Shown here piece after piece: positions 19,472-33,053 of a stretch of DNA of 64,000 bases (positions are counted from its first letter, which is position 1; every line of letters begins with the position of its first letter). The DNA is from Planctomycetota bacterium. GTDB lineage: Bacteria; Planctomycetota; SZUA-567; H5-PLA8. Both the position numbers and the translations under genes were made by a program. The notes under the pieces are model-generated. The model was not told where the DNA came from, made no database searches, and worked only from the letters and a program-made list of their open reading frames with translations. Where the stretch lies: NCBI GenBank assembly GCA_016200135.1, contig JACQFI010000066.1:1-64000 (forward strand), written 5' to 3'.

Positions 19472-20407
19472 ATGAGCACCTCCAGTCTTCAGGCGCTTCC
19501 TCAAGCTCAACCCGCCGAACCAGAACAACCCGCACCAGCGGAAACGCCCTCGCGCAGAGCGCGGCCCAAAGTTCACTCGGAAGTCCGGGCGCGCATTCGC
19601 CCGGGCCGGCCCGTGGGCAAGCTGCTCGGCGGGGTGCTCGCGGCGCTGGGCCTCGGCTACAGCCTCGCGGTGGTGCTCGCCGGGCCGGACCTGATCCCGT
19701 GGTACTGGGCGCCCAATGCGCCGGAGTTCAACGCGCTGGCGGGCGGGTTCCTGCTGGCCGCGGGCATCCTCGTGCTGCTCTGGCGCTTCTCGATCCGGCT
19801 GCTGATGCTCCTGATCTTTCTGGCTGGCGCGTTCGGGCTGGTGGGCCAGCAGGTGGGCCGGCGCACGCCGCTCTTCCACCGCACCAACATTGCCTCGCAC
19901 GACACGGCCATGCTCGAGCACCTCTTCAACGCGGGCATCGCGGGCACGCTGGCCGAGCGCGGCGTCTTCGACCCGGCCAACCCGCCCTTCCGCGCGTACT
20001 ACGACTTTCAGAAGCGGCTCTGCGTGGAGATCTACCCGCACGCCGATCCGCGCATGTGGCGCATGCCGCAGGCCATCGAGACCTTCGTCTTTAAAATGGA
20101 AGGCGTGGACAGCATGGGCCGCTACAAGGACCCGTGGTCCGGCACGCGGGCAACCGACTGCCTGGACGCGGTGTCCTATCTTCAAGCCACGCTAGCCAAG
20201 CGCTTCGGTGAGGAAAACGCGCACGCCGTGATTGCGCGCTGCGCGGAGCTGATCACCGACGAGACCTTGCGGGACGTCTTCCGCAAAGCCGCGGGCATCC
20301 CCGATCCCCCGCTCGCCGCGGACGACCTCGCGCAACCCAACCAGAGCCCGGTGCCTGGTAACAATGTCCCCGAACCCGCCAATCCCGCCAACGTGCCGGA
20401 CGAATGA
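19472..20407 (+). CDS. Hypothetical protein with two membrane helices
   Basis: A 311-residue protein: a Pro/Ala/Glu-rich N-terminal 40 residues, two hydrophobic helices (about 50-72 and 83-110, the second very Leu-rich), then a soluble domain with conserved-looking aromatic and charged residues (FRAYYDFQKRLCVEIYPHAD), and a Pro/Asn-rich tail. I do not recognise the family. The ATG was chosen because it begins a polar region before the first helix; GAAAGGCGGG upstream is a weak ribosome-binding site. It converges with the vWA gene and shares a hairpin with it. Confidence 0.65.
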   Translation: MSTSSLQALPQAQPAEPEQPAPAETPSRRARPKVHSEVRARIRPGRPVGKLLGGVLAALGLGYSLAVVLAGPDLIPWYWAPNAPEFNALAGGFLLAAGILVLLWRFSIRLLMLLIFLAGAFGLVGQQVGRRTPLFHRTNIASHDTAMLEHLFNAGIAGTLAERGVFDPANPPFRAYYDFQKRLCVEIYPHADPRMWRMPQAIETFVFKMEGVDSMGRYKDPWSGTRATDCLDAVSYLQATLAKRFGEENAHAVIARCAELITDETLRDVFRKAAGIPDPPLAADDLAQPNQSPVPGNNVPEPANPANVPDE

Positions 20408-20426
20408 AAAAAGCCTGCGTTACAAA

Positions 20427-20456
20427 CAGAACGGGCGCCTTACGGCGCCCGTTCTG
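20427..20456. terminator. Hairpin between convergent genes
   Basis: A perfect 13-bp stem (CAGAACGGGCGCC and complement) with a 4-nt loop lies midway between two converging genes. T-rich sequence follows only on the minus-strand side, and not directly, so it is a likely but not classic terminator. Confidence 0.6.
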
Positions 20457-20477
20457 CGCTCCGGCATGGGCTTTCGT

Positions 20478-23159
20478 TTACGGAAGATCGTTCGCCGGCG
20501 GCTGGCCTTTCACGGCCTTCTCCGCCTTCTTGATCAGCTCGAGGAACTCCGCGCGGTAGCCGTTCGCGTCGGCGCCCTTGGCTTCGGCCGCGAGTTCGTA
20601 CACCAGCGCCCAGTTGCTCAGGCCCTTGAACTGGCTGCCGCGCAGCACCATGCCGTAGGCGGCGACGGCCGACGCGAAGCGGTAGTCCTTGGTGGAATCC
20701 TTCCACGTCTTGCCGCTGTCCTTCACGGGGAACTCGAGCAGCTTGCTGGCCTGGCCGTCCGGCGCCTTGTAGCGGAGCTTCAGCGTCAGGAGTTCGCCGT
20801 TGGCCGCCGCCGCCGTCGGGCGCGCTTCCGCCTGGTACTTGAGCGGCTCGGTCTCCACGGGCAACTGCTGCTTGAGCGCGGCGATCTGCTTGCGGAGCGC
20901 CTCGATCTTTTCATGCAGCGCCTGCGACTCGGGCGTCGGCTTGGCGGTCGGGACGTCCTGTTTCAGGAGTTCCTCCAGGTCCGCATCCAGCTTCTTGAGC
21001 TGCTCCTTTACTTCTGCGTTCTTCGATTCCTGGTCGGCGACCAGTTCCGCGGGCACGACCTCGTACAGCGCCGTCACCGTGTGCCCCGCGCCGATCTCGC
21101 CCGCGTCCTTCTTATCGTCGTTGAAGTCCTCGCGCGCCAGCAGGCGGTTCTCGTAGCCGATCAGGCGGTACGCGCCGGCCGCCGCGGGGTTGAACTCGAC
21201 CTGGATCTTCACGTCCTTGGCGATGGTCACCAGCGTTCCGCTGAGCTGCTCGACGAACATCTTCTTGGCTTCCTTGGCGGTATCGATGTAGCCGTAGTGC
21301 CCGTTGCCCTTGTCGGCGAGCTGTTCCATCGTAGCGTCCTTGAGGTTGCCCATGCCGAAGCCGAGCACGCTTAAGAAAACGCCGCTCTTGGCTTTCTCCT
21401 CGATCAGCCGCGTCAGATCGCCCTGGTTGGTGACGCCGACGTTCCAGTCGCCGTCGGTGCAGAGGATCACGCGGTTCACGCCGCCCTTGATGAACGCGTC
21501 CGTGGCCGTCTTGTAGGCGAGCATGATGCCTTCGCCGCCGTTGGTGCTGCCGCCCGCGGCGAGGCCGTCGAGCACGTCCAGGATCTTATGTTTGTTGTTG
21601 CCGTTCGTGGAGGGCAGCACGAGGCCGCTGTTGCCCGCGTAGACGACGATGGCCACCTTGTCGTTCTCGCCGAGCTGGCCCACCAGCATGCGCAGCGATT
21701 CCTGCACCAGCGGGAGCTTGTTGGGCTCGTTCATGGAGCCGCTCACGTCGATCAGGAAGACCAGGTTCGTCGCCGGGCGCTTGTCCTTCTCGACGGTCCG
21801 GCCCTTCAAGCCCACCCGCACGAGCCGGTGCGCAGGGTCCCAGGGGCACTCGGCCACTTCGATGTTCGAACTGAACGGCACGTCGTCGGTGGGCGGCGCG
21901 TAGTCGTAATCGAAGTAGTTGACTAGCTCTTCAATGCGCACGGCATCCGGCGGCGGCAGGAAGCCCTGGTTCAGGTAGCGCCGCGTGTTGCTGTAGCTCG
22001 CGGTGTCCACGTCGATGCTGAAGGTCGAGACCGCGTCCTCGCCGCGCACGGCCTTGAACGGGTTCTCGACGATGCGGTTGTACTGCTCGGTGTTGAACTC
22101 GGGGTCGACCTCCTGCAGCGACGCGATCAGGCCCTTGGCTTCCGCCTGGTCGTTCAAGTTCCTCCAGGTGACGGTCTTCTTTTTGAGGTCGGCTACTTTG
22201 CCCTTGAGTGCCACGAACGCATCGTTGATGTTCGCGACCTCTTTTCCGGTCAGCATGCGCACGCGATTCGAGTTCAGCTTGAACCAGCCCGCTTTGAGGT
22301 CGGCGTTCTGATCGCCAACGTTTGGCATTGGGTTATGGAGTTTTGAAGTGGGAACCGGACCGTCGACCACTCCCGGAGCCGGGGGGCCGTAGTGGCTCTC
22401 CATTTTTTCCACTTCTACGCTCATTATTCTAATGCTTGATGACCCCGACGAGCTCGTCATCCCGCCGCCGGACGTGCCGGAAGAGGACGACGTGCCAACA
22501 TAACCGACGAAAGGCGCGGCCGTGGTGGTATCCGGACGTACGGTCTCAAAGTAGTCGCCCAATTCGCCCTTGGCAGGAGGCGACAGCTTCATCCAACCGC
22601 CCGGCGCCTTGCGCTTCGGATCATTCTTTCCGCTGTCGTAACCAAACCCGCCCGCATCAATGCCTTGCGTATTATCAAATCCAGACTCCGGCGGCTTCTT
22701 GGTCTCTTTCGGAGTGGGATTGTAGGGTACCTCATCTTGCGGTCTTGCCAGATTGGTCACACTCGCCGATCTGGGAGCGCTCAGGTACGCGAACCCCAGC
22801 GTCACCGTCGCCAGCACCGCCGCGGCGAAGCCCACGATGCCCCACGGCAGCCAGGAAGATTGAGGATGGCGGGCACGGAGGCCCGCCCCACCGGCCTTTC
22901 CAGAGCCGCTTACAATCACCGCCGCGCCCGCCAGGCCGCCGATCTTCTCTTTCTGCGCGTCGGTCAGTCCGGGCGCGCTGGCGTTCTCCTTAGCGAGTTC
23001 CCCCGCGAGCGAGGCGCCGAAGGCGCGCGTCTCTTCGACGAACGCGCGCGCGGCCTCGTCACCCTTCAGGAGCTTCTCGATCGCGGAGGCTTCGGCCGGC
23101 GGGAGTTCGCCCAGCGCATACGCCGTCAGTTTGGGATCGTCGAGGTTCAGCTTGGACAT
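20478..23159 (-). CDS. vWA/YfbK-type protein with anti-sigma-like N-terminus
   Basis: An 893-residue protein. Residues 1-60 (LTAYALGELPPAEASAIEKL) resemble the N-terminal domain of anti-sigma factors, without the zinc-binding cysteines. A membrane helix lies at about 104-128, then a Gly/Ser-rich linker. A vWA_N-type region with FSIDVDTASYSNTRRYL (about 370-400) leads to the vWA domain with a perfect MIDAS, D471-V-S-G-S, and later ILCTDGDWNVGV. A YfbK-like C-terminal domain follows, interrupted by a coiled-coil insert (about 720-780). The gene lies behind an ECF sigma gene on the same strand. Together they look like a sigma/anti-sigma circuit in which the vWA part senses something outside the cytoplasm; this role is inference. 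A dispersed repeat element lies in frame near residue 93. Confidence 0.85.
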   Translation of the reverse strand: MSKLNLDDPKLTAYALGELPPAEASAIEKLLKGDEAARAFVEETRAFGASLAGELAKENASAPGLTDAQKEKIGGLAGAAVIVSGSGKAGGAGLRARHPQSSWLPWGIVGFAAAVLATVTLGFAYLSAPRSASVTNLARPQDEVPYNPTPKETKKPPESGFDNTQGIDAGGFGYDSGKNDPKRKAPGGWMKLSPPAKGELGDYFETVRPDTTTAAPFVGYVGTSSSSGTSGGGMTSSSGSSSIRIMSVEVEKMESHYGPPAPGVVDGPVPTSKLHNPMPNVGDQNADLKAGWFKLNSNRVRMLTGKEVANINDAFVALKGKVADLKKKTVTWRNLNDQAEAKGLIASLQEVDPEFNTEQYNRIVENPFKAVRGEDAVSTFSIDVDTASYSNTRRYLNQGFLPPPDAVRIEELVNYFDYDYAPPTDDVPFSSNIEVAECPWDPAHRLVRVGLKGRTVEKDKRPATNLVFLIDVSGSMNEPNKLPLVQESLRMLVGQLGENDKVAIVVYAGNSGLVLPSTNGNNKHKILDVLDGLAAGGSTNGGEGIMLAYKTATDAFIKGGVNRVILCTDGDWNVGVTNQGDLTRLIEEKAKSGVFLSVLGFGMGNLKDATMEQLADKGNGHYGYIDTAKEAKKMFVEQLSGTLVTIAKDVKIQVEFNPAAAGAYRLIGYENRLLAREDFNDDKKDAGEIGAGHTVTALYEVVPAELVADQESKNAEVKEQLKKLDADLEELLKQDVPTAKPTPESQALHEKIEALRKQIAALKQQLPVETEPLKYQAEARPTAAAANGELLTLKLRYKAPDGQASKLLEFPVKDSGKTWKDSTKDYRFASAVAAYGMVLRGSQFKGLSNWALVYELAAEAKGADANGYRAEFLELIKKAEKAVKGQPPANDLP
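22868..22887. repeat. REP-like element inside the vWA gene
   Basis: GGCGGGC-ACGGAG-GCCCGCC, a 7-bp stem with a 6-nt loop, lies in frame and encodes part of G-G-A-G-L-R-A-R-H-P just before the membrane helix. The phrase is like intergenic palindromes common in this group of bacteria. Confidence 0.55.
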
Positions 23160-23189
23160 CGCAGGACTCCTTTATCTTTTATCTGGTGC

Positions 23190-23217
23190 CACTGGCTGCT
23201 GTTGTTTGCAGCCAGTG
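23190..23217. repeat. Hairpin between sigma and vWA genes (family C relative)
   Basis: A perfect 10-bp stem (CACTGGCTGC / GCAGCCAGTG) with an 8-nt loop, preceded by GGTGC as in the palindrome at 13.0 kb. It lies in the 117-bp gap between the sigma gene and the vWA gene and could attenuate or process their joint transcript. Confidence 0.6.
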
Positions 23218-23276
23218 ATTCCGTTCGCCCTCACACGGGCCGCGAACAGCCGCAGCCGATGGCCCTACCGACTGCT

Positions 23277-23804
23277 TCACGCCTTCAACTGCCCTTCGGC
23301 CACGCGTGCGCGCAGCGTCTTCAAACCGTGGTGGATCAAAACGCCGACGTGCGAGATCGAGCGTTCCGTGATCGCGGCGATCTCCTTGTACGAGCGCCCG
23401 TGCTGGAACTTGAGGCGGAGCACTTCCTGCTGGTCCTCGGGCAGTTCGTCGAGCATGCGCAGCGCCTCGCCGGCCGCCTCCTTCCGTTCCAGCGCTTCGG
23501 TGGGCGTCGGCTGCGGGCTGGATTTGCTGGCCGCGGGAGATTCGTTTAGCGCGAGCATGCGTCGTTCCTTTCGGCGGATATCGAGCGCGTAATTCCGGCA
23601 GACCGTATAGAGCCACTCCGCGAGATGCGATTCGACTTCGCTGTGCGGCTGCGAACACAGACGCAGAAAGGTCTCCTGCACCACGTCGCGCGCGCGCTCG
23701 GCGTCGCCGGTCAGGCGCGCGGCGTAGAGCGTCAGCGGGCCCTCAAAGCGGGCCACCGCTTCCCGGATCCAGGCCCCGTCACGGGCCCCCGCGCCGTCGC
23801 TCAT
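23277..23804 (-). CDS. ECF-type RNA polymerase sigma factor
   Basis: A 175-residue protein with region 2 (residues about 20-85; ARDVVQETFLRLC and EWLYTVCRNYALDIRRKE) and region 4 (about 115-170; LDELPEDQQEVLRLKFQHGR followed by S-Y-K-E-I-A-A-I-T-E-R-S). It would direct RNA polymerase to stress-type promoters. AAGGCGG precedes the ATG by about six bases; a GTG two codons earlier is possible. The vWA protein encoded 117 bp downstream on the same strand has an anti-sigma-like N-terminus and is the likely regulator. The promoter is not clear; the upstream region is AT-richer between 23900 and 23970. Confidence 0.92.
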   Translation of the reverse strand: MSDGAGARDGAWIREAVARFEGPLTLYAARLTGDAERARDVVQETFLRLCSQPHSEVESHLAEWLYTVCRNYALDIRRKERRMLALNESPAASKSSPQPTPTEALERKEAAGEALRMLDELPEDQQEVLRLKFQHGRSYKEIAAITERSISHVGVLIHHGLKTLRARVAEGQLKA

Positions 23805-23987
23805 CCGCACCGCCTTCTGTCGCGTATGTACGTCCTGGTTCCAATAGACCCACGTTCGAGTAGACCGGTTCTTACCGAATATTGGAGGGAAACGAGAAAG
23901 GACAGACCGGGATTAGGCGGGGTCATATAGGAACACCTATAGATAATAGATTTAACAGGTTATACGCTCATTCGGCGCCGTTGAAAT

Positions 23988-24070
23988 CCCCTCCTTATGT
24001 AAGGAGGGGTTAGGGGAGGTTTAGAAAACGCAGGCATTAACCCCCTGTATCCCCCCTTACTTAAGGGGGG
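23988..24070. repeat. Double-hairpin repeat (family E)
   Basis: Two tight hairpins, CCCCTCCTTA-TG-TAAGGAGGGG and CCCCCCTTA-CT-TAAGGGGGG, separated by 41 nt. The arms also pair with each other. It is part of a 365-bp gene-free stretch (23805-24169) that otherwise holds the sigma-gene upstream region and one arm of family A. Confidence 0.8.
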
Positions 24071-24128
24071 AATTCTCGACGCACCGCGGGTTTTCAACAG
24101 AGCGACAAATGATTATACGCGTGCTGTT

Positions 24129-24154
24129 CTTGGCGCTTTGGCGTCTTGGCGGTT
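24129..24154. repeat. Family A repeat, single arm
   Basis: CTTGGCGCTTTGGCGTCTTG plus GCGGTT, the right arm of the family A element, without a matching left arm within 150 bp. It ends 16 bp from the stop of the next gene. Confidence 0.75.
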
Positions 24155-24169
24155 CAATCAACGGGCCAT

Positions 24170-24814
24170 TTACTCGTCGCTATCCGTCGAGATCACCGGC
24201 TGGTCGAGCAAGTAGCTGACGGCCGTGGCGAGCAGCTTCTCTTCGGCGCGCTTGCGCGTCTTCCAATCTTTGATGCGCTTCTTCTCTTCCTGGGCTTCGG
24301 TGGCGAGGACCGCGGCTTCCTTCTTGAGCCGCTCGATCTGCGCCTCGCACTCGGCGATTTTGCGGTGGCGCAGCACGTCGCGCGCGTCGAGCTTCGCGCG
24401 CAGCGAGGCCTCGAAGGCGTCCAGCGCCTGGTCGCGCGAGACCGCGTCCTTCACGACCTCCTCCGCGGGAACCTGCGCTTCGACCAGCTTGGCGTGCAGC
24501 ATCTTCTGCGCGGTCAGGCGGTCCATGCTCTTGAACGGCTCTTTCTCCACCAGTTCTTTGATGGTGAAGATGGTCCAGCCGCCCTCGCCGGGCTTGATCC
24601 CCGCGGCCTCGTAGACCTTCTCGAAGGGAACAGAGAGTTCCTCCGGCAGGCCCGCCAGCGCGCGGATCTCCTCGGCGCGGATCTCGCCGGTGAGTTCCGC
24701 CAGCGTCACCGAGCGCGTCGGCGTCTTCTCGGGCTGCGCCGCGGGCAGGATGCGCACGGATTGGACGATGCGGAGCTTGCTGCCCAGGTTCTTCAGGCCG
24801 TCGATCAGGCCCAT
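24170..24814 (-). CDS. Coiled-coil protein of unknown function
   Basis: A 214-residue soluble protein. The N-terminal half (about 35-110) is mixed alpha/beta with a helix-hairpin-like part (FTIKELVEKEPFKSMDRLTA). The C-terminal half (about 120-200) is a long charged helix with heptad pattern (AECEAQIERLKKEAAVLATE), predicted to form a coiled coil. It starts one base after the stop of the second coiled-coil gene, so the two are one operon. I do not recognise the family. Similarity of composition to envelope-stress proteins such as PspA is noted only as a possibility. Confidence 0.72.
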   Translation of the reverse strand: MGLIDGLKNLGSKLRIVQSVRILPAAQPEKTPTRSVTLAELTGEIRAEEIRALAGLPEELSVPFEKVYEAAGIKPGEGGWTIFTIKELVEKEPFKSMDRLTAQKMLHAKLVEAQVPAEEVVKDAVSRDQALDAFEASLRAKLDARDVLRHRKIAECEAQIERLKKEAAVLATEAQEEKKRIKDWKTRKRAEEKLLATAVSYLLDQPVISTDSDE

Positions 24815-24815
24815 G

Positions 24816-25679
24816 TCAGTTTCCCCCTTCCACGGCGGTGTTCAGCGAGATCGGCGGCGACTCGACGAGGATGTCTTCCACCTGCCCGTAGATCGCCTGC
24901 TGGTCCTTGATGAACTGGTTGGTGCCGCCTAGCGTGGCCGTCACCTGGTCGATACGCTGCGAGACCATCTCGGGATTGGCCGAGAGCGCGCTCTGTTCGC
25001 GAATCAGTTCCACCTGTTCCTGAATGCGGATCAGCTCGGCCTCCATGAACGAGAACTTCTGCCGCGCCGCCGCGCGGGCTTCGAGGCGCTGCTTGAGGAT
25101 ATCCACCTGGCTGGTGAGGCTCTTCTTCAGGTCCTCGGCGATGTTGGGCTCCGTGAGCAGCTTCTGCAGGTTGGCGATGCGCTGTTCGAGGTCGCGGACG
25201 CTCTCGCCTTCCTTCTCGTCCTGGTCCACGATGCGACGGATCGACTGCCGCGTGATCAGGAGCTTGAGGTAGATCCAGAGCAGGCGTTCGAGGCCTTCGC
25301 GCTGCGCCGAGACGGCTTCCTTGGGCGCGCTGGTGCGGGTCTGCTGTTCGAGGATCGCGCGGCAGCGATTGGCCAGGTTCTCGTAGCGGCGGCGGTCCTC
25401 CAGTTCGAGCGGCGCGATCAGCTTGTAGGTCTGGTTCTGCATCTGCTGGAGCGTCTGATTGTTCATCTGCGCATCGACGATCTTGCGGAAGCGCGGGTTG
25501 TTGGTGAGCGCGTAAAGGTACGCGAGCTCCAGGCCGGCGCCCAGCAGCCAGAAGCCCGGATTGATGACGAATCCGAGCAGACCCATAAAGCCCAAGCCAA
25601 CCCAGTTCGGCGGCACGAACATCCCGATCGGGCGCGCGTTGAAGGCGGCTTTGAGATAGTCCCACAGGCCAGCTTTCAT
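24816..25679 (-). CDS. Membrane-associated coiled-coil protein
   Basis: A 287-residue protein with a hydrophobic hairpin near the N-terminus (about 22-55; VGLGFMGLLGFVINPGFWLL) and then about 220 residues of charged helix with strong heptads (IANLQKLLTEPNIAEDLKKS and the Arg/Glu/Gln-rich stretch after it). The N-terminal ATG is chosen because the frame upstream is in the AT-rich spacer and not protein-like. It is encoded just before another coiled-coil protein. The pair lies on the same strand as the ABC genes at 27.1-28.8 kb, separated from them only by the AT-rich HNH island, so they may once have been one operon. Function unknown. Confidence 0.72.
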   Translation of the reverse strand: MKAGLWDYLKAAFNARPIGMFVPPNWVGLGFMGLLGFVINPGFWLLGAGLELAYLYALTNNPRFRKIVDAQMNNQTLQQMQNQTYKLIAPLELEDRRRYENLANRCRAILEQQTRTSAPKEAVSAQREGLERLLWIYLKLLITRQSIRRIVDQDEKEGESVRDLEQRIANLQKLLTEPNIAEDLKKSLTSQVDILKQRLEARAAARQKFSFMEAELIRIQEQVELIREQSALSANPEMVSQRIDQVTATLGGTNQFIKDQQAIYGQVEDILVESPPISLNTAVEGGN

Positions 25680-25810
25680 AGTTCCCCGCGATTCTATTAA
25701 GCGCGGCCCGAAACGGCTATCGGCAAACCGGGGGAAGACCTGATCGATTGCATTTGTGTAAGGTAACTTATGGGACAGCCTAGCTTTATGCCAATAGAAA
25801 CCCGTTTGTA

Positions 25811-26203
25811 TCATTCAATCCTTTTTTTTAGTGATTCTTGGCGAACACGCATTCTTAGGGCTTCAATACAAGCCATCAAACATTCAAAAGAGTGCTTTTT
25901 GAGCTCCTGCTTCAGTTGTCCTAATGTTGGTGGTGGTATCAATTGACCTTTTTGTTTCAGAATAGATATCCCGTCCTTACAAGTCGAACAAAGGGTTCTC
26001 CAATCTGATAATTTAAAAATTCCCTTGGCCGAAGAAAATCCCCGATTGTCTAGCATTAGGCTAATATGCTCCCCTGGCATGTATGGATCGGTATCGAAAG
26101 GTCCAGCGCCACACATTTGGCAAACAAGTCGATCCCTCGCAAGAACTTTCATCACGAACTCTACATTCAAAGAATCGTCTCTTCGATTTTTAGGCTTTGC
26201 CAT
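25811..26203 (-). CDS. Small HNH nuclease-like protein
   Basis: A 130-residue protein with an HNH/zinc-finger arrangement: C28-x2-C31 (VLARDRLVCQMCG), E45-H46-I, N53, and C72-x2-C75. E replaces the more usual D before the histidine. Such domains cut DNA or, more rarely, only bind it. The region is AT-rich (near 42 % GC) while the neighbours on both sides are near 65 %. The gene is divergent from the controller gene across a 77-bp spacer that holds a C-box; in many restriction systems this position is held by the methyltransferase gene. AGGAG ten bases upstream supports the ATG. Activity is predicted, not shown. Confidence 0.7.
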   Translation of the reverse strand: MAKPKNRRDDSLNVEFVMKVLARDRLVCQMCGAGPFDTDPYMPGEHISLMLDNRGFSSAKGIFKLSDWRTLCSTCKDGISILKQKGQLIPPPTLGQLKQELKKHSFECLMACIEALRMRVRQESLKKRIE

Positions 26204-26234
26204 GGGAATGCCGCTCCTGATCAATAGGTCTGTA

Positions 26235-26244
26235 GACTATAGTC
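26235..26244. promoter_or_regulatory. C-box operator for the controller protein
   Basis: The perfect palindrome GACTATAGTC, followed by CCGAGGA, lies 37 bp before the controller ATG. Known C-protein operators share the form GACT-N-ATAGTCCG-TG-GA; the first half matches closely, the second half-site (near 26249-26259) is weak, as is usual for the lower-affinity repressing site. Confidence 0.65.
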
Positions 26245-26245
26245 C

Positions 26246-26274
26246 GAGGACGAAATCGCAACCTCCCTTAACAT
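26246..26274 (+). promoter_or_regulatory. Possible promoter of the controller gene
   Basis: TAACAT at 26269-26274 ends six bases before the ATG, with GAGGAC 17 bp further upstream overlapping the weak operator half. No ribosome-binding site precedes the ATG, so the transcript may be leaderless, as is common for C genes. Confidence 0.3.
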
Positions 26275-26280
26275 TAATTT

Positions 26281-26493
26281 ATGTCATTCGGCACAGAACT
26301 GAAAAAGGCAAGAACCCTTGCGGGGTTGAGCCAAGAAAAGCTGGCGTTTGAAGCAGAGGTGGATCGAACTTACATCAGTCTGCTCGAGCGTGGGAAAAAA
26401 TGTCCGACGTTGGAAGTTTATTTTAGGATTTGCCGAGCACTGAAAATGTCACCAACAACCATGATGGCAAGGCTTGAAAAATCCTTGAGATGA
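26281..26493 (+). CDS. Restriction controller (C) protein, XRE-type
   Basis: A 70-residue helix-turn-helix protein. The pattern FGTELKKARTLAGLSQEKLA followed by E-V-D-R-T-Y-I-S-L-L-E-R-G-K-K-C-P-T-L is that of C.AhdI/C.PvuII-type controller proteins, which form dimers and time restriction gene expression. Its size and the tandem position, 9 bp ahead of an HNH nuclease gene, fit the C-R order of type II restriction systems. The upstream C-box supports self-regulation. It could also be an ordinary XRE repressor, but the operator match makes a C protein more likely. The gene is AT-rich compared with the chromosome. Confidence 0.82.
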   Translation: MSFGTELKKARTLAGLSQEKLAFEAEVDRTYISLLERGKKCPTLEVYFRICRALKMSPTTMMARLEKSLR

Positions 26494-26502
26494 GGGCATC
26501 TG

Positions 26503-27060
26503 GTGCCAAAGGGACAGAAAAGCAAAGCTGATATTTCTAATACCGCCATCCGAGTTTTTTTGCAGATGGTAGGTATTTCCTATGATGAAGCTCGTGGGTT
26601 AGAACCATTCAAACCATCAAGAGAACAATGCAAAGAGGTGCTTGAGTTTTTTAACTCCTGTTGTTGCTATTGTGATATGAAAATTGGCTTGGAAGAGTTC
26701 ACTTCCGATCACTTAATACCAGTCAATAAATCGTTTTTAGGCTTACATGCATGGGGTAACGTAGTTCCATGTTGCGGAAAATGTAATAAGGCAAAACACA
26801 ATCAACCGTGGCGTGATTTTATTATAGGTGCGCATAAGGGGAAGGAGGGCAAAGCTCGAACCAAGAGAATAGAAGATTTTATTTTCCATTATAGATATAA
26901 ACCAACAATTGATCTCCAACAGATTGCTACCAACCTTTATCAAGATGTTGGCGAAGTTGCCTGGACACTAATTCAATTGAGATTTCAACAAGCGAAAACT
27001 TCTATTGAAAAAATTCATGGCGTAGAAAGTTCTGAGAAAAACAATTTATTAAACCCATAA
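26503..27060 (+). CDS. HNH endonuclease (restriction-enzyme-like)
   Basis: A 185-residue protein with an HNH core: zinc cysteines C54-x2-C57, catalytic D69-H70 in TSDHLIPVNKS, N86, and a second pair C91-x2-C94 in V-P-C-C-G-K-C-N-K-A-K-H-N. The start is a GTG preceded by GAGGG, overlapping the end of the controller gene region. The tandem arrangement with the controller gene predicts that it is the restriction nuclease of the pair. GC content is about 40 %, the lowest in the window, so it was probably acquired horizontally. No DNA methyltransferase is encoded within the island or near it, so how the host is protected is unclear. The recognition sequence is unknown. Confidence 0.8.
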   Translation: MPKGQKSKADISNTAIRVFLQMVGISYDEARGLEPFKPSREQCKEVLEFFNSCCCYCDMKIGLEEFTSDHLIPVNKSFLGLHAWGNVVPCCGKCNKAKHNQPWRDFIIGAHKGKEGKARTKRIEDFIFHYRYKPTIDLQQIATNLYQDVGEVAWTLIQLRFQQAKTSIEKIHGVESSEKNNLLNP

Positions 27061-27096
27061 TCTCAGCAAAAAACTATTTTTAGTAGCTCCTACTAA

Positions 27097-27933
27097 TTAC
27101 CCCAACTCCACCTTCTTCCCGTCCGCGCGCTGGGTTACGCGGCGGAAGGCTTCGGTGACCGCGCGCACGGCGTCTTTGAACTCGGTGCGCTCCTGGGCTT
27201 CCAACGGTTTGATGCCGCGCGACGGCGGGATGCCTTCGCGGATGTCGTAGCCGATCTGCCCCGGCGCCGAGGTGAAGATCCAGACGCGCTCGCCCAGGTA
27301 CACCGCCTCCGCGATGCTGTGCGTGATGCAGAAGATGGTGGGATGGATGCGGTACCACAATTCCACGAGCAGTTCCTGCATCTCCAGGCGCGTGGGTTCG
27401 TCCAGCGCCGAGAAGGGCTCGTCCATGAGCAGAATGCGCGGCTCGATCGCCAGCGAGCGCGCGATCGCCACGCGCTGCTGCTGGCCGCCGGAGAGCTGGT
27501 GCGGGTACTTGTCCTCGTGGCCGAGCAGGCCCACGTGCTTGATCAGTTCCATGGCCTTCTCGCGGCGCTGTTCGTGCGAGAGCCCCATCTCGGCGGCGTT
27601 GATGTTCAGCCCGAAGAGCACGTTCTTGAGGATGGTCAGGTGCGGGAACGAGCTGTACTGCTGGAAGATCATGCCGCGCTCGCGGCCGGGGCCTTCCACG
27701 CGCCGGCCGCGCACGAGCACGTCGCCGGAAGTGGGCTGGAGAAACCCGGCGATGAGATTCAGGAGCGTGCTCTTGCCGCAGCCGGAAGGTCCGATGATCG
27801 AGATGAACTCGCCCTTGTCCGGCACGTCCGCGATCTTGAACGAGACGTCGTTGAGCGCCACGAAGTTCCCGAACCGCAGCACGACGTTGCGGAACTCCAC
27901 AACCAACGGCAGGTCCTGCTCGGAGGCGCTCAC
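27097..27933 (-). CDS. ABC transporter ATP-binding protein, NitT/TauT type
   Basis: A 278-residue ATPase with Walker A GPSGCGKST at about residues 48-56, Q-loop (MIFQQYSSF), signature LSGGQQQR, Walker B RILLMDEP and the switch His in ITHS. It is closest in pattern to SsuB/TauB/NrtD-type importers of sulfonates, taurine, nitrate or similar small molecules. I take the GTG whose GTGA overlaps the permease stop, with GGAG nine bases upstream; a TTG 16 codons earlier lies inside the permease gene. It acts on the cytoplasmic side with the permease encoded just upstream. No binding-protein gene is adjacent. Confidence 0.9.
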   Translation of the reverse strand: MSASEQDLPLVVEFRNVVLRFGNFVALNDVSFKIADVPDKGEFISIIGPSGCGKSTLLNLIAGFLQPTSGDVLVRGRRVEGPGRERGMIFQQYSSFPHLTILKNVLFGLNINAAEMGLSHEQRREKAMELIKHVGLLGHEDKYPHQLSGGQQQRVAIARSLAIEPRILLMDEPFSALDEPTRLEMQELLVELWYRIHPTIFCITHSIAEAVYLGERVWIFTSAPGQIGYDIREGIPPSRGIKPLEAQERTEFKDAVRAVTEAFRRVTQRADGKKVELG

Positions 27934-28754
27934 CGTTGCGTGCTCCGGTAGGGGAAGAGCAACTTGCCCGCCTGGTTCCAAGCAAGGTCAGCGATCCAGG
28001 CGATCAGGGTGATGATCAGAATCGCGAGCCAGACGCGCCCCGGCAGCGCACGCCGCCGGGCGGTATCGATCAGATCTCCAAGGCCGCCTTCCTTCACTAC
28101 CACCTCGGCCAGCACGAGGTACGTCCAGCCGACGCCGAAGGCCAGACGCATAGAGTGCCAGATATCCGGCAGCGCCACCGGCACCAGAACGCCAAAGACG
28201 GTCTGGAATCGCGTGGCGCCGAGCGTGTACGCGGTGCGGAGATAGACGTCGGGCACGCCGTCGATGGCGCGCACGATCAACGGCAGCAGGTAGATCGCAA
28301 AGGCCAGCGCGAGGAAGATGATGCGCTGCTTTTCGCCCGAACCGAAGAGCGAGATCGTGAGCGGCACGAGCGCGGCGATGGGGATGTAGCCGCTCGCCGT
28401 GGCCAGCGGCAGGAACGTCGCGCGCACGCTCCCGAACGCGCCCATGGCAATCCCGAACGGCAGCGTGACCGCCAGCGCCAGCAGAAAGCCCACCAAGACC
28501 CGGAATAGGCTCAATTCGACATGCTGAACGAGCGACCGCCCCTGCTGGTCGTTCTCATGCAGGAGTTCGGGAACGCTCGCTACGACTTCGTGCGGGCTCG
28601 GCAGGATCAACGGGCTGATGACGCGCTCTTCGGCATCGCCGGCAGTAATGAACCACCAGATCAGCAGGAGCAGCAGCACCGGCACGAGGCCAAAGAGGAC
28701 CGCCGCCTTTTTGGGCGCCTTGCCTCGTATCTCGAGAAACCACGCTGGAAACAT
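27930..28754 (-). CDS. ABC transporter permease, NitT/TauT type
   Basis: A 274-residue membrane protein with about six helices and a BPD_transp_1 core; the EAA-like loop is seen around R-T-A-Y-T-L-G-A-T-R-F-Q-T-V-F-G-V-L-V-P. The pattern matches SsuC/TauC-type permeases. AAGG lies eight bases before the ATG. It is coupled by a 4-nt overlap to the ATPase gene. The substrate is unknown; a NMT1-type binding protein fused to OmpA at 59.8 kb is a possible partner. Confidence 0.9.
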   Translation of the reverse strand: MFPAWFLEIRGKAPKKAAVLFGLVPVLLLLLIWWFITAGDAEERVISPLILPSPHEVVASVPELLHENDQQGRSLVQHVELSLFRVLVGFLLALAVTLPFGIAMGAFGSVRATFLPLATASGYIPIAALVPLTISLFGSGEKQRIIFLALAFAIYLLPLIVRAIDGVPDVYLRTAYTLGATRFQTVFGVLVPVALPDIWHSMRLAFGVGWTYLVLAEVVVKEGGLGDLIDTARRRALPGRVWLAILIITLIAWIADLAWNQAGKLLFPYRSTQR

Positions 28755-28818
28755 GTCGTTACCTTACGCGAAATCCGGAACGGCTGTCAAACGCCGGGTT
28801 TGCAACCGCGGGCGCTTT

Positions 28819-28898
28819 AACCGCCAAGGCGTCACAGCGCCAAAGCCGCACCTGCTCGTAAATATCCGTGCTCTTTGCGCTTTGGCGTCTTGGCGGTT
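28819..28898. repeat. Paired-arm repeat, family A copy 3
   Basis: Left arm AACCGCCAAGGCGTCACAGC... and right arm ...GCGCTTTGGCGTCTTGGCGG pair with about four mismatches. It lies within the 415-bp gene-free stretch between the ABC operon start and the next sigma gene; the rest of that stretch (28900-29169) has only short hairpins such as CCCCTTTCAAGGGG and no visible gene. Confidence 0.75.
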
Positions 28899-29169
28899 CA
28901 TTTTGGAATCAGTCTAACCTCTTTTCTCCCGGTGGGTTAACGCAGCACTAAATTCACCAGGAGCCCCGTATTTACGGGAATAGTTACGTTCCTTTTGAGA
29001 TTTAGGAGCAAGGGAAAAGGATGCCCCTTTCAAGGGGGAAAGGCTGGCCTATGAGAGCTCGCTCGAATGCGGGAGGGCGGTTGCCTTGAAAACAGCGCAA
29101 CGGACCTTACCGTGGCATCCATCGCTCTGGCAGTGTTGCCGGAGTTTGGCCAAAGCCACGGGTAAACTT

Positions 29170-29811
29170 ATGGGAAACACCGAATCCACCAGTCGCCCCG
29201 CGGTGCATGCGCTTTCGCCCGCGGCCTTGGCGGAACGGCGCGCGGCGTTCGAAGCCGTCGCCATGCCGCTCGCCGATATCCTCTACGCGTCCGCCTATCG
29301 CATGCTTGGAAACTCGGCCAAGGCCGAGGACCTCGTCCAAGAGACCTACATCCGCGCCTGGAAGAACTTCGACCGCTTCGAAACGGGCACGAACTTCAAG
29401 GCCTGGATCTTCAAGATCATGATCTTCGTGAACCGCAACGACCGCCGCAATCCGCGCTCGCGCGACATCAACGTGGACTTCTCGGCCTACGAACACCCCG
29501 TTGCGGCCGCGCCGGAACCGGATCCGGTGGCCGCGGGCCGCGTGAACTGGGAGGCGCTGTACGGCGAGCTGGTCGAAGACGAATTCAAACGCGCCCTTGA
29601 ACACCTGGACGAAGACCAGCGCACGGTGCTGATGATGGTCACGCTGGGCGAGCTCTCGTATCAGGAAGTCTCCGACACGCTGGGCGTGCCGATCGGCACC
29701 GTGATGTCGCGGCTCTTCCGCGCCCGCAAGCGCCTGCAGGAAGAGCTCCACGACTACGCCAAAGAGCGCGGTCTGCTCCGCAAGGCCGGCAAAGAGGAGG
29801 CCGCGGGATGA
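29170..29811 (+). CDS. ECF-type RNA polymerase sigma factor
   Basis: A 213-residue sigma factor. Region 2 spans about residues 30-100 (YRMLGNSAKAEDLVQETYIR and FKAWIFKIMIFVNRNDRRNP), region 4 about 145-200 (LGELSYQEVSDTLGVPIGTV). Its TGA overlaps the ATG of the following anti-sigma-like gene (ATGA), so the two are translationally coupled, as is typical of sigma/anti-sigma pairs. The ATG at 29170 has no clear ribosome-binding site; a TTG at 29086 would add 28 residues of unlikely sequence. Confidence 0.9.
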   Translation: MGNTESTSRPAVHALSPAALAERRAAFEAVAMPLADILYASAYRMLGNSAKAEDLVQETYIRAWKNFDRFETGTNFKAWIFKIMIFVNRNDRRNPRSRDINVDFSAYEHPVAAAPEPDPVAAGRVNWEALYGELVEDEFKRALEHLDEDQRTVLMMVTLGELSYQEVSDTLGVPIGTVMSRLFRARKRLQEELHDYAKERGLLRKAGKEEAAG

Positions 29812-30890
29812 GCCAGCCCCCGGCGCCCGACGCTTTCGACGCCTTCGTAAAGAAGGCCGGAGGATCGCCTAAGCCTCCGCCGGGCCTGCGCGACCGCATT
29901 CGCGCGCGGCTCGACGCGGCCGACGCCGAGATGGGCGCCGACCTCGAGCGCCAGGAACTTCATGCCTTCCTCGACCGCCAGTTGCCGCCGGAGCGCGCGG
30001 CCAAGGTTGAAGCGAAGCTCTCCCAGGACCCCAAGGCGGCGCAGGCCGCGGAAGAGGAGCGCGCGTTTCTGGCGCTGGTGAAGAAAGCCAGCGCCCGAAG
30101 CTCCGCGCCCCCGGGGTTTCGGGAGCGGCTTGCGGCCAAGCTGAACGCCACGGAACTCGACGCGCAGCCTGCCGAGGCCGCGCAAGCGGGCGCTCCTGCC
30201 ACCCTGGAAGCCCAGCGAACTCCGCCGCCGGAAAGAGCGCGCGTCGTGCGCGGCTTCTTCGGCAGCCGCGCGCGCATCCTCGCCTCGTCGCTGGCGGCGA
30301 GCGTGCTCGCGGTGGTGGGCCTGTACGTTTACTTCACCCGGATGGCGGAGTGCCCGTACATGCTCGGCTGCGTCGAACAGCACCGCGCGATCCTGGAAGG
30401 CAAGGAGAAACTCGCGGTGGCCCAGGGCGACCCGGAGGCCATCGCCGCGTTCGTGCGCGAAAAGGCCGAGAAGAACCTGGGCGCGCTGCCCGACTTCAGC
30501 CGCTTCAACCTGGCCCCCGCCGGCGCCGGCGTGGCGAGTTTCTCGAACCTGCCCAGCGACTGGAAAGCACCCCAGGGCGCGTTCGTAAAGCTTACCGGCG
30601 CCCAAGGCGAAGTCGCCACGCTCATCTTTCATCCATGGATCGAAGAAGAGCCGATGGAGACGAACCTCAAGCTGATCGATGGGAAGAAATTCTGGCTCAT
30701 GGACCACCAGGGCTACCGGGCCGCAAGCTGGAAGCTCTGCGACGGCGTGCTCTGCACGTTCATCAGCAAGCGCTCCATGGACGACGTGCGGAAGCTGGCC
30801 GTGGACGTCTGCAACCAGATCCAGCTCCGCACCGTCCGCGCCCCGCTCCGCACGAACACTCGCGAAACGCTCCTCTGCCGCGCGCCGTGA
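29808..30890 (+). CDS. Membrane anti-sigma factor-like protein
   Basis: A 360-residue protein. The cytoplasmic part carries two similar segments of the form PPGLRDRIRARL (about 24-35) and PPGFRERLAAKL (about 103-114), with a helical stretch FLDRQLPPERAAKVEAKLSQ between them that is the anti-sigma-like core. A membrane helix lies at about 160-178. The extracytoplasmic domain contains four cysteines (about C187, C191, C309, C314) that may form disulfides. It overlaps the sigma gene and should hold that sigma factor at the membrane until a signal arrives. The zinc-binding His-x3-Cys-x2-Cys motif is absent, so this is not a zinc-binding anti-sigma factor. Confidence 0.78.
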   Translation: MSQPPAPDAFDAFVKKAGGSPKPPPGLRDRIRARLDAADAEMGADLERQELHAFLDRQLPPERAAKVEAKLSQDPKAAQAAEEERAFLALVKKASARSSAPPGFRERLAAKLNATELDAQPAEAAQAGAPATLEAQRTPPPERARVVRGFFGSRARILASSLAASVLAVVGLYVYFTRMAECPYMLGCVEQHRAILEGKEKLAVAQGDPEAIAAFVREKAEKNLGALPDFSRFNLAPAGAGVASFSNLPSDWKAPQGAFVKLTGAQGEVATLIFHPWIEEEPMETNLKLIDGKKFWLMDHQGYRAASWKLCDGVLCTFISKRSMDDVRKLAVDVCNQIQLRTVRAPLRTNTRETLLCRAP

Positions 30891-31100
30891 TACCCCCATC
30901 GGCCTCCTGAAATAACCCAAGTCTTGGCCTAAGTCGATCTGCCGTATCGCGATCCGTCGATCAAGCTATTTTGCATATTAATGCAGGGAAGCCCGCGCCT
31001 CGCGCCGTGTGATTATGGACGGAGGAAGCGACGGCCGATGCAGACAAAGGTGTTAGGCCGGGTTCGGTCCCGGGTTGCCCCCAAGGAGCAGCATTCCTCC

Positions 31101-33053
31101 ATGCCCAACGACGCCGACTTGATGGCGCGATACGTGAAGGACGGTGACGCACTTGCCTTTGGCGCGCTCGTCGAACGCCACGCGGGCATGGTGTACGGCG
31201 TCTGCCGGCGCATCCTGGGCGACGCGCACGCCGCCGAGGACGCGGGACAGGCGGTCTTTCTGCTTCTCACACGCAAGGCGGCAGGCCTCAAACCGCAGGT
31301 GTCCCTGACCGGCTGGCTCTATCGCGCCGCGGTGCTGGCGGCGTGTGAGGCGCGGCGGAACCGGGCCACACGTGAACGGCACGAACGGGAGGCAGCGACC
31401 ATGCGGGCTCAAGAGGACAGTCCGGACGCCGGAGCAGCGCTGCGAAACTGGGAGCAGATCGCTCCGAATCTCGACGCGATGCTCGAACGGCTGCCTTCCG
31501 ACCAGCGCGACGCGCTAGTCCTGCGGTACCTCTCGGGCCTCAGCGAAGCCGATGCGGCACGTGAGCTCGACTGTCCGGTCGGCACGCTCTCGGCGCGCGT
31601 CTCGCGAGGCCTCGAACGCCTCCGGGTGCTCTTCGGTGGCGGTACGGTGCTGCCGGCGGGCGCGCTCGCGGCGGCGCTGGCTTCGCACGGTTCGCCCTCC
31701 GCGCCGGCGGCCTTCGCCTCCTCCGTCCAGTCGGTCTGTCTTGGAAAAGCGGCCGCCACCGCCATCACCCTTGCCATCACGGAGGCCGTCATGAAGACGA
31801 TGTTCTGGATTAAAGTGAAATTCGCGGCTGCTTGCGTCGCGCTCGCGCTTGTGCTGGGTGCCGGCGCGCCTCTGGCGTACCGCGCGCTGGCCTCGGAAGC
31901 CGCTCCGTCGGCCGTTCCGCCGCCGAAAACCGGCGAGGCCGCCGCCCAAGCACCCGCTCCGGAATCCGTGCCCGAGAAAGTCCGCTTTACGCCCGGCTAC
32001 ACGACCGCCAATCTTCAGTACGAGCGCATCTCGCGGACGGAACTCAAACGCGACAAGGAGACCCTGACCGAGGTCGAGACCTACTTCATGGACAAGTTCA
32101 TGGACTATCAGATCTACGACCTGAAAATCGAGAAGGACGTTATGGACAAACGCCTGTCCTTCTCCTGCAACAAGGTTACCGGCGTGATCGACCAGGCCGG
32201 CTTCGCCAGGGCCACTGGCCAAGCCGCCGATCCCGACCACGCCCGCGATACGCTCGTCATTACCTTCGACAAGTTCGAGAACAACCAGAAACTGTCGACG
32301 TTCTGGAACCTGGTAAAAGACCAGCGGATCGAACTCAAGAATACCGAACTCCAGTTCGTGCCCATCGGCAATGCGTTCATCGGGATGGGCTTCATGTCGC
32401 TGGATATGGGCTTTTCCGGGCCGGTCTGCATCGCCGGCGATCAGCCGCGCGCGGTCGGCGATTCCTGGAAGATTCCCGTGGTTCTGCCAAGGCAGGAAAA
32501 GAAGGAGCCGGATCTGCGCACGTTCCACCTAGCCAAGCTTGAACGCAACGGCGGCGTGCTTCTTGCCACGGTGAAGGTGGACAAGGACACCTTCAAGGTC
32601 AAGGACCCGAAGATGCTCCCGGGTAAGATTAAGCTCCTGGGGCACGACTTCGACTATACGCTCGGCGTCGAAGTCGAGGGAGAGACCAGCGGTGAGTACC
32701 TCGTAGACGTGGAGCGCGGCGTCGTTCTGAAGGGCGCGGAGACCATGGATTGCAAAATGAACCTCACGATCAAGCTGGCCGACGATGCGCCGGAGCAGAT
32801 CAAGAACTTCGTCGGCAAGGGCATCGTGGGCCACTTGGTCGTTCAGAACCAGGACCGGCTGCTGGAGGCTGAAGAGGGCCACGCGCTTTCCGGCGAACCC
32901 GCAAAGCCGGAGGCCATCGCCGAATTGCGCAAGCGCTGGCAGCCGCTGACGCAGGCCAAAGACGACGCCTTCATGGTGGCGCTGGCTCAGAATATTCTCA
33001 GCAAGCTCGACATCGTGGCCAAACAGAAACCAGCCAAGCCTGACGACTTCTAA
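31101..33053 (+). CDS. Membrane-tethered ECF sigma factor with large extracytoplasmic domain
   Basis: A 650-residue fusion. Residues about 1-95 are sigma region 2 (YVKDGDALAFGALVERHAGM, RRILGDAHAAEDAGQAVFLL), about 125-180 region 4 (SDQRDALVLRYLSGLSEADA). A membrane helix follows at about 235-258, then a Pro/Ala-rich linker and a roughly 350-residue domain of unknown fold. Planctomycetes are known for such sigma factors with C-terminal extensions, thought to be their own sensors. The ATG at 31101 has AAGGAG 12 bases upstream; an ATG at 31038 also follows a GGAGG. A stand-alone signal-peptide-like M-K-T-M-F-W-I-K begins the membrane part, as if a secreted protein had been joined to the sigma factor. 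Confidence 0.85.
   Translation: MPNDADLMARYVKDGDALAFGALVERHAGMVYGVCRRILGDAHAAEDAGQAVFLLLTRKAAGLKPQVSLTGWLYRAAVLAACEARRNRATRERHEREAATMRAQEDSPDAGAALRNWEQIAPNLDAMLERLPSDQRDALVLRYLSGLSEADAARELDCPVGTLSARVSRGLERLRVLFGGGTVLPAGALAAALASHGSPSAPAAFASSVQSVCLGKAAATAITLAITEAVMKTMFWIKVKFAAACVALALVLGAGAPLAYRALASEAAPSAVPPPKTGEAAAQAPAPESVPEKVRFTPGYTTANLQYERISRTELKRDKETLTEVETYFMDKFMDYQIYDLKIEKDVMDKRLSFSCNKVTGVIDQAGFARATGQAADPDHARDTLVITFDKFENNQKLSTFWNLVKDQRIELKNTELQFVPIGNAFIGMGFMSLDMGFSGPVCIAGDQPRAVGDSWKIPVVLPRQEKKEPDLRTFHLAKLERNGGVLLATVKVDKDTFKVKDPKMLPGKIKLLGHDFDYTLGVEVEGETSGEYLVDVERGVVLKGAETMDCKMNLTIKLADDAPEQIKNFVGKGIVGHLVVQNQDRLLEAEEGHALSGEPAKPEAIAELRKRWQPLTQAKDDAFMVALAQNILSKLDIVAKQKPAKPDDF

Follow-up and report, generated by a model that had tools for sequence, protein, structure and literature searches.

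An AT-rich island with a C-protein-type controller, a C-box, and an HNH gene but no linked methyltransferase in a Planctomycetota bacterium

An AT-rich island of three genes between two core genes

The window, a 64,000-nucleotide stretch of a draft genome from a Planctomycetota bacterium, carries a short AT-rich insertion between two core genes. Three genes (here designated A, B, and C) and one predicted operator lie within the insertion or island, as follows.

24816-25679: left neighbor of the island, a core gene
about 25735-27095 (edges approximate), no strand: AT-rich insertion of 1.36 kb, delimited by GC content and empty-site comparison
25811-26203, minus strand: gene A, encoding a truncated protein of 130 amino acids that is related to type II HNH restriction enzymes linked to methyltransferases, identified by tblastn
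26231-26251, plus strand: predicted C-box operator (TG-TA-GAC-TATA-GTC-CGAG-GAC) between genes A and B
26281-26493, plus strand: gene B, encoding a controller (C) protein of 70 amino acids, identified by HTH_3, PADLOC, and likeness to C.BclI
26503-27060, plus strand: gene C, encoding an HNH protein of 185 amino acids with a GTG start (PF01844)
27097-27981: right neighbor of the island, an ABC-transporter ATPase gene

The composition of the island departs sharply from that of its surroundings. GC content is 42% for the kilobase from 26001 to 27000, compared with approximately 62 to 65% in the flanks within the window. Genes A, B, and C have GC contents of 42%, 46%, and 38%, and their GC3 values (37%, 49%, and 32%, respectively) contrast with 88% in an adjoining gene. 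The two flanking genes directly adjoin each other in G056 and G156, both from the same family, which constitutes an empty site. The empty-site gap in L016 spans roughly 60 to 70 bases, with window positions 25679 and 27121 corresponding to L016 positions 2346 and 2417. In G110, a genome of the same genus, similarity to the window extends to approximately position 25731, beyond which the sequences differ. The island edges at approximately 25735 and 27095 therefore derive from the adjacency in G056 and G156 together with the break in G110. Only short, chance-like repeats were found at the island termini, and a scan of the island for sigma-70 promoters gave no more matches than shuffled sequences did. 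The island, inserted into an otherwise empty site, is probably horizontally acquired DNA, an origin that its sequence supports.

An earlier, sequence-only reading of this DNA had described an AT-rich island (about 40 to 42% GC in 65% GC surroundings) with three genes arranged as in a type II restriction-modification system. The GC values given above bear this description out. All three open reading frames are present, with that of gene A backed by homology, and the controller, C-box, downstream nuclease gene, and divergent third gene are all seen in the expected order.

The controller and its predicted operator

The protein encoded by gene B matches HTH_3 in a Pfam search (E = 2e-14) and retrieves PADLOC control-protein models with E values down to 4e-13. 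Its best solved relatives are the controllers C.BclI (2b5a; 9e-10) and C.AhdI (3e-8). The C-box decamer, GACTATAGTC, lies at 26235-26244 and has one match in 64 kb, compared with 0.01 expected; when combined with the CCGNGGAC extension, it is the sole exact match in the 6.1-Mb genome. The optimal C.Esp1396I site is GAC-TATA-GTC with TG outside (PMC3758141), and C.PvuII-like proteins use GACT-tat-AGTC (PMC4824078). The restriction-type controller and C-box that had been proposed for this locus were thus both recovered, with B nearest to C.BclI and C.AhdI and a canonical C-box 5' of B. Binding of the C-box by the controller would set expression of a B-C operon.

Several characters of type II systems are present together, namely, a controller of the C.BclI/C.AhdI type, a predicted C-box upstream of it, and a co-directional adjoining nuclease gene with an intact motif. 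The island shares with the C-regulated systems PvuII, AhdI, BclI, and Esp1396I the C-box and controller, the position of the controller directly 5' of the nuclease gene, a divergent third gene, and residence in an acquired AT-rich island. Unlike these systems, the island contains no methyltransferase, and the product of its divergent gene is a truncated HNH protein whose active site has been lost.

Protein A is HNH-like by descent

The open reading frame of gene A occupies 25811-26224 on the minus strand, with a likely ATG start at 26203 and AGGAG ten bases upstream. No Pfam match was obtained for protein A. In a tblastn search of the island with the L004 restriction enzyme, protein A was aligned over 112 amino acids (E = 4e-11). 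We treat gene A as real because of this protein homology; the length of the open reading frame is in itself no proof, as 28 of 300 shuffled islands contained a stop-free run of at least 131 codons.

The relatives of protein A are proteins of 190 to 220 amino acids encoded beside a DNA methyltransferase, for example, WP_219616922.1, which adjoins a DNA cytosine methyltransferase on the Acidithiobacillus plasmid pGT2. Close relatives were defined by a profile score above 170 bits (n = 26, including genomic and viral loci); some of these are near-identical copies, and the number of independent cases is lower than 26. A C5 or amino methyltransferase directly adjoins 25 of the 26, and the remaining relative (L079) lies at a contig end. 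The catalytic His is kept in all 26 (as GH, once as AH), as is the Asn.

Protein A resembles these enzymes over approximately 112 residues, including both Cys pairs, but differs from them in that the first ∼80 residues are missing, the catalytic His, the Asn, and the final Asn have been replaced, and no methyltransferase adjoins its gene. In the best alignment, GHI is changed to DNR, SNL to SDW, and CNQG to CKDG (i.e., H to N, N to D, and N to K). No remnant of the missing N-terminal part was found in the island. As judged from homology, protein A is a truncated descendant of known type II HNH restriction enzymes, HNH-like by descent and not by active site. Having lost the three HNH residues along with ∼80 residues at the N terminus, protein A is probably not a nuclease, a loss of activity that is read from one diverged sequence. 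On the same grounds, we rejected A as a second active nuclease, and the two HNH nuclease-like genes of the sequence-only reading reduce to one, with A retaining the likeness through ancestry only.

We note that A's restriction-enzyme family also occurs in many viral contigs (L075-L090), paired with methyltransferases and, in some cases, with an additional Vsr-like gene.

Protein C and its mostly solitary relatives

Gene C starts 9 bases past the end of gene B, and a GAGGG motif overlaps the stop codon of B. Its product matches the HNH family PF01844 (E = 2.7e-7) and retains an intact motif (D69 H70, N86, and C91 C94 N95 K98) that is invariant in the family alignment. The assignment of an HNH nuclease gene to the position just after the controller is upheld by this match and these active-site residues. 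The structural model of protein C (pLDDT of 85) has as its nearest solved folds the HNH domains of Cas9 and the Gme HNH nickase. The HNH core is alike in sequence and fold to the Gme and Cas9/IscB-type HNH domains; in contrast to these, protein C has no guide-RNA domains and possesses its own helical flanks. From the intact HNH motif, we infer that protein C is a working nuclease.

Relatives of protein C were sought with short peptides in 84,980 genomes. Thirteen were found in several phyla, eleven of them at 43 to 55% identity over most of the protein. Full-length relatives (45 to 55% identity) are encoded in Vibrio, Colwellia, Planctomicrobium, Burkholderiaceae, Neomarinimicrobiota, Nitrospinota, Geothrix, and Shimia. 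The family is rare, with one clear case (that of the window itself) among 392 genomes of the phylum, and support was too low to place the window's protein C among its relatives in a tree. At the eight loci of the full-length relatives named above (L021-L028), the C gene lies beside unrelated genes; neither a controller nor an A-type gene accompanies it, and no methyltransferase resembling any of three query methyltransferases is present. With eight of eight loci devoid of a similar linked methyltransferase, the C family does not appear to need one. The C genes are often AT-rich relative to their own loci (GC of 0.49 versus 0.67 at L027 and 0.42 versus 0.54 at L024), which fits gene transfer.

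Three more divergent relatives, one of which is a fragment, lie within a few kilobases of C5 methyltransferases (L029, L030, and L033); thus, members of the C family may cleave unmodified sites and depend on protection. L029 and L033 also contain a Vsr-like gene. Solitary relatives (L021-L028, L031, and L040) are distributed over several phyla and one viral contig, and the gene at L031 is frameshifted. Integron cassettes were considered as carriers of the solitary relatives. A strict scan for RYYYAAC...GTTRRRY found no attC sites around them; attC-like motifs are visible by eye, and the scan is blind to degenerate sites.

Methyltransferases in the genome

As the sequence-only reading had stated, the island lacks a methyltransferase: none is encoded among its open reading frames, and query methyltransferases had no meaningful match in the island or in window positions 20000 to 33000. 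The METHYLTRANSFERASES families PF00145, PF01555, and PF02384 were searched in the genome, a draft that is 91% complete. PF00145 (C5 methyltransferase) had no match in this 91% complete draft, and 10 of 14 control genomes were matched. The genome contains one PF01555 match (M.PvuII-like) and three PF02384 matches (N6-type). The M.PvuII-like gene (L034:8532-9578, minus strand, on contig C56 of the genome, G000) encodes a close relative of M.PvuII (1boo; E = 4e-137) and is located 237 bases from the contig end, beside a gene that we take to be infB. Upstream of it, the end of an open reading frame cut by the contig end is visible.

A check for an orphan methyltransferase elsewhere in the genome, suggested by the same reading, thus had a mixed outcome. 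Candidates are present in the form of the M.PvuII-like gene and the three PF02384 matches, but the first of these is distributed differently from protein C, and the genome has no other copy of the C-box. No link between the methyltransferases of the genome and the island was found.

Occurrence of the arrangement and comparison with known systems

The three-gene arrangement was found in no other genome examined, where the collection-wide search used protein C only. Searches of the phylum with A (294 genomes) and C (392 genomes) likewise failed to recover it, as did those of the viral and plasmid collections, of the class of Colwellia with C (369 genomes), and of its phylum by A-type alignment (399 genomes). 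The profile check proposed earlier for the same three genes elsewhere therefore returned no second case, and the arrangement is a single copy among the genomes examined, which limits what can be built on it.

A known defense system of the A-C type was rejected, as there was no full-length PADLOC or NCBIfam match. Septu (PtuA-PtuB) was also rejected; PtuB matched at the HNH core only, and the island has no ATPase gene. Solitary restriction genes are common and fall into separated, fragmentary, and unexplained classes (PMC3488263). Like these solitary endonucleases, gene C has no linked methyltransferase, and the explanations offered for them (a separated system, a fragment, or altered function) are all applicable here. 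The island differs in that its nuclease gene is accompanied by an intact controller and C-box and in that members of the C family stand alone in most of the genomes examined.

What is new at this locus is the retention of the controller and C-box, together with the absence of a methyltransferase, whose usual divergent position is occupied by an HNH relative with a dead active site.

Possible origin and function of the island

Our tentative preference is to regard the island as a rearranged C-protein-controlled restriction module in which C is a working nuclease and A is a relic or pseudo-enzyme. The present island would be a horizontally acquired, rearranged descendant of such a module. Under control of B, protein C would probably act as a restriction enzyme on incoming DNA with no methyltransferase linked to it. 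In such systems, the divergent position is often that of the methyltransferase; here, it is taken by A, which, being truncated and dead at the active site, is probably a relic or a noncatalytic pseudo-enzyme. Several counterpoints apply. The divergent C relatives near C5 methyltransferases suggest that the family may require protection, the cognate methyltransferase may be missing from the 91% complete draft or be among those found, and the good Shine-Dalgarno sequence and open frame of A are more than a dead relic needs. If C is active, an intact controller and C-box drive a nuclease without a linked methyltransferase, which raises the question of how the host survives, and an HNH family that is mostly solitary in several phyla becomes a candidate stand-alone defense nuclease.

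We consider it unlikely, albeit with some points in its favor, that C is a sequence-specific enzyme of a separated type II system whose cognate methyltransferase lies elsewhere, with the M.PvuII-like gene of contig C56 as the foremost candidate. That gene has 45% GC in a 65% GC contig and so also appears acquired, and a PvuII-type restriction enzyme was not found (PF09225 had no match in the genome, and no control genome was matched either). The three PF02384 matches offer further candidates, and a distant methyltransferase was predicted for 57 of 272 solitary restriction enzymes (PMC3488263). However, the M.PvuII-like match is absent from 9 of the 10 other genomes with protein C, and that in the tenth is partial and weak (E = 4.5e-7; 61 amino acids). 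Moreover, no second C-box that might govern a distant methyltransferase rose above the reversed-pattern control in the whole genome, and the truncated open reading frame upstream of the M.PvuII-like gene could be its own partner.

Decay of the whole island, such that it is restriction debris with C unexpressed or inactive, would accommodate the truncated, active-site-dead A and the missing methyltransferase, and 99 of 272 solitary restriction genes were judged to be fragments (PMC3488263). In that event, the locus would be an ordinary case of restriction-module decay. We judge this quite unlikely given that B, the C-box, and C are intact and that C keeps every family-invariant catalytic residue. 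Furthermore, the frame of C is open over 185 codons, a length reached by a stop-free run in only 1 of 300 shuffled islands.

A modification-dependent (type IV-like) activity of C, which would leave unmodified host DNA alone, is improbable. Its solitary, methyltransferase-free occurrence in several phyla and the helical N- and C-terminal parts that flank the HNH core in the model would suit such an enzyme. Nevertheless, neither a Pfam search nor structure comparison recognized a modified-base-binding or reader domain, and control by a C protein is typical of conventional type II systems. Divergent relatives also lie near C5 methyltransferases, a setting that an enzyme dependent on 5mC should not tolerate.

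Least probable, to the point of being very doubtful, is a nuclease/inhibitor pair, an addiction-like module under C-protein control in which the dead HNH protein A would restrain C and thereby give the protection otherwise due to a methyltransferase. In its favor, gene A has a ribosome site of its own and diverges from gene B across the C-box that they share, and the kept Cys pairs and lost active site of protein A form the pattern expected of a repurposed fold. Against it, the A-C pair occurs in no other genome examined, the eight C relatives with readable surroundings are solitary (so C does not generally need A), and the two proteins have no detectable kinship apart from a faint HNH trace. 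The weak best solved folds for A (E of 0.06 and above) include DotN, a secretion-system protein with an HNH fold and a nonnuclease role, but the model of A is poor (pLDDT of 65), too poor to interpret.

Two further groups of HNH proteins were noted during this work. The genome encodes a second HNH protein of 202 amino acids (L002:1348-1956, on contig C45 of G000) that differs in type from protein C. Another solitary HNH subfamily, more remotely related to protein C and with members that start with MAIYNTASDAANTAVRA, is present in three genomes (L039:1483-2043, L055:1486-2040, and L056:1486-2043).
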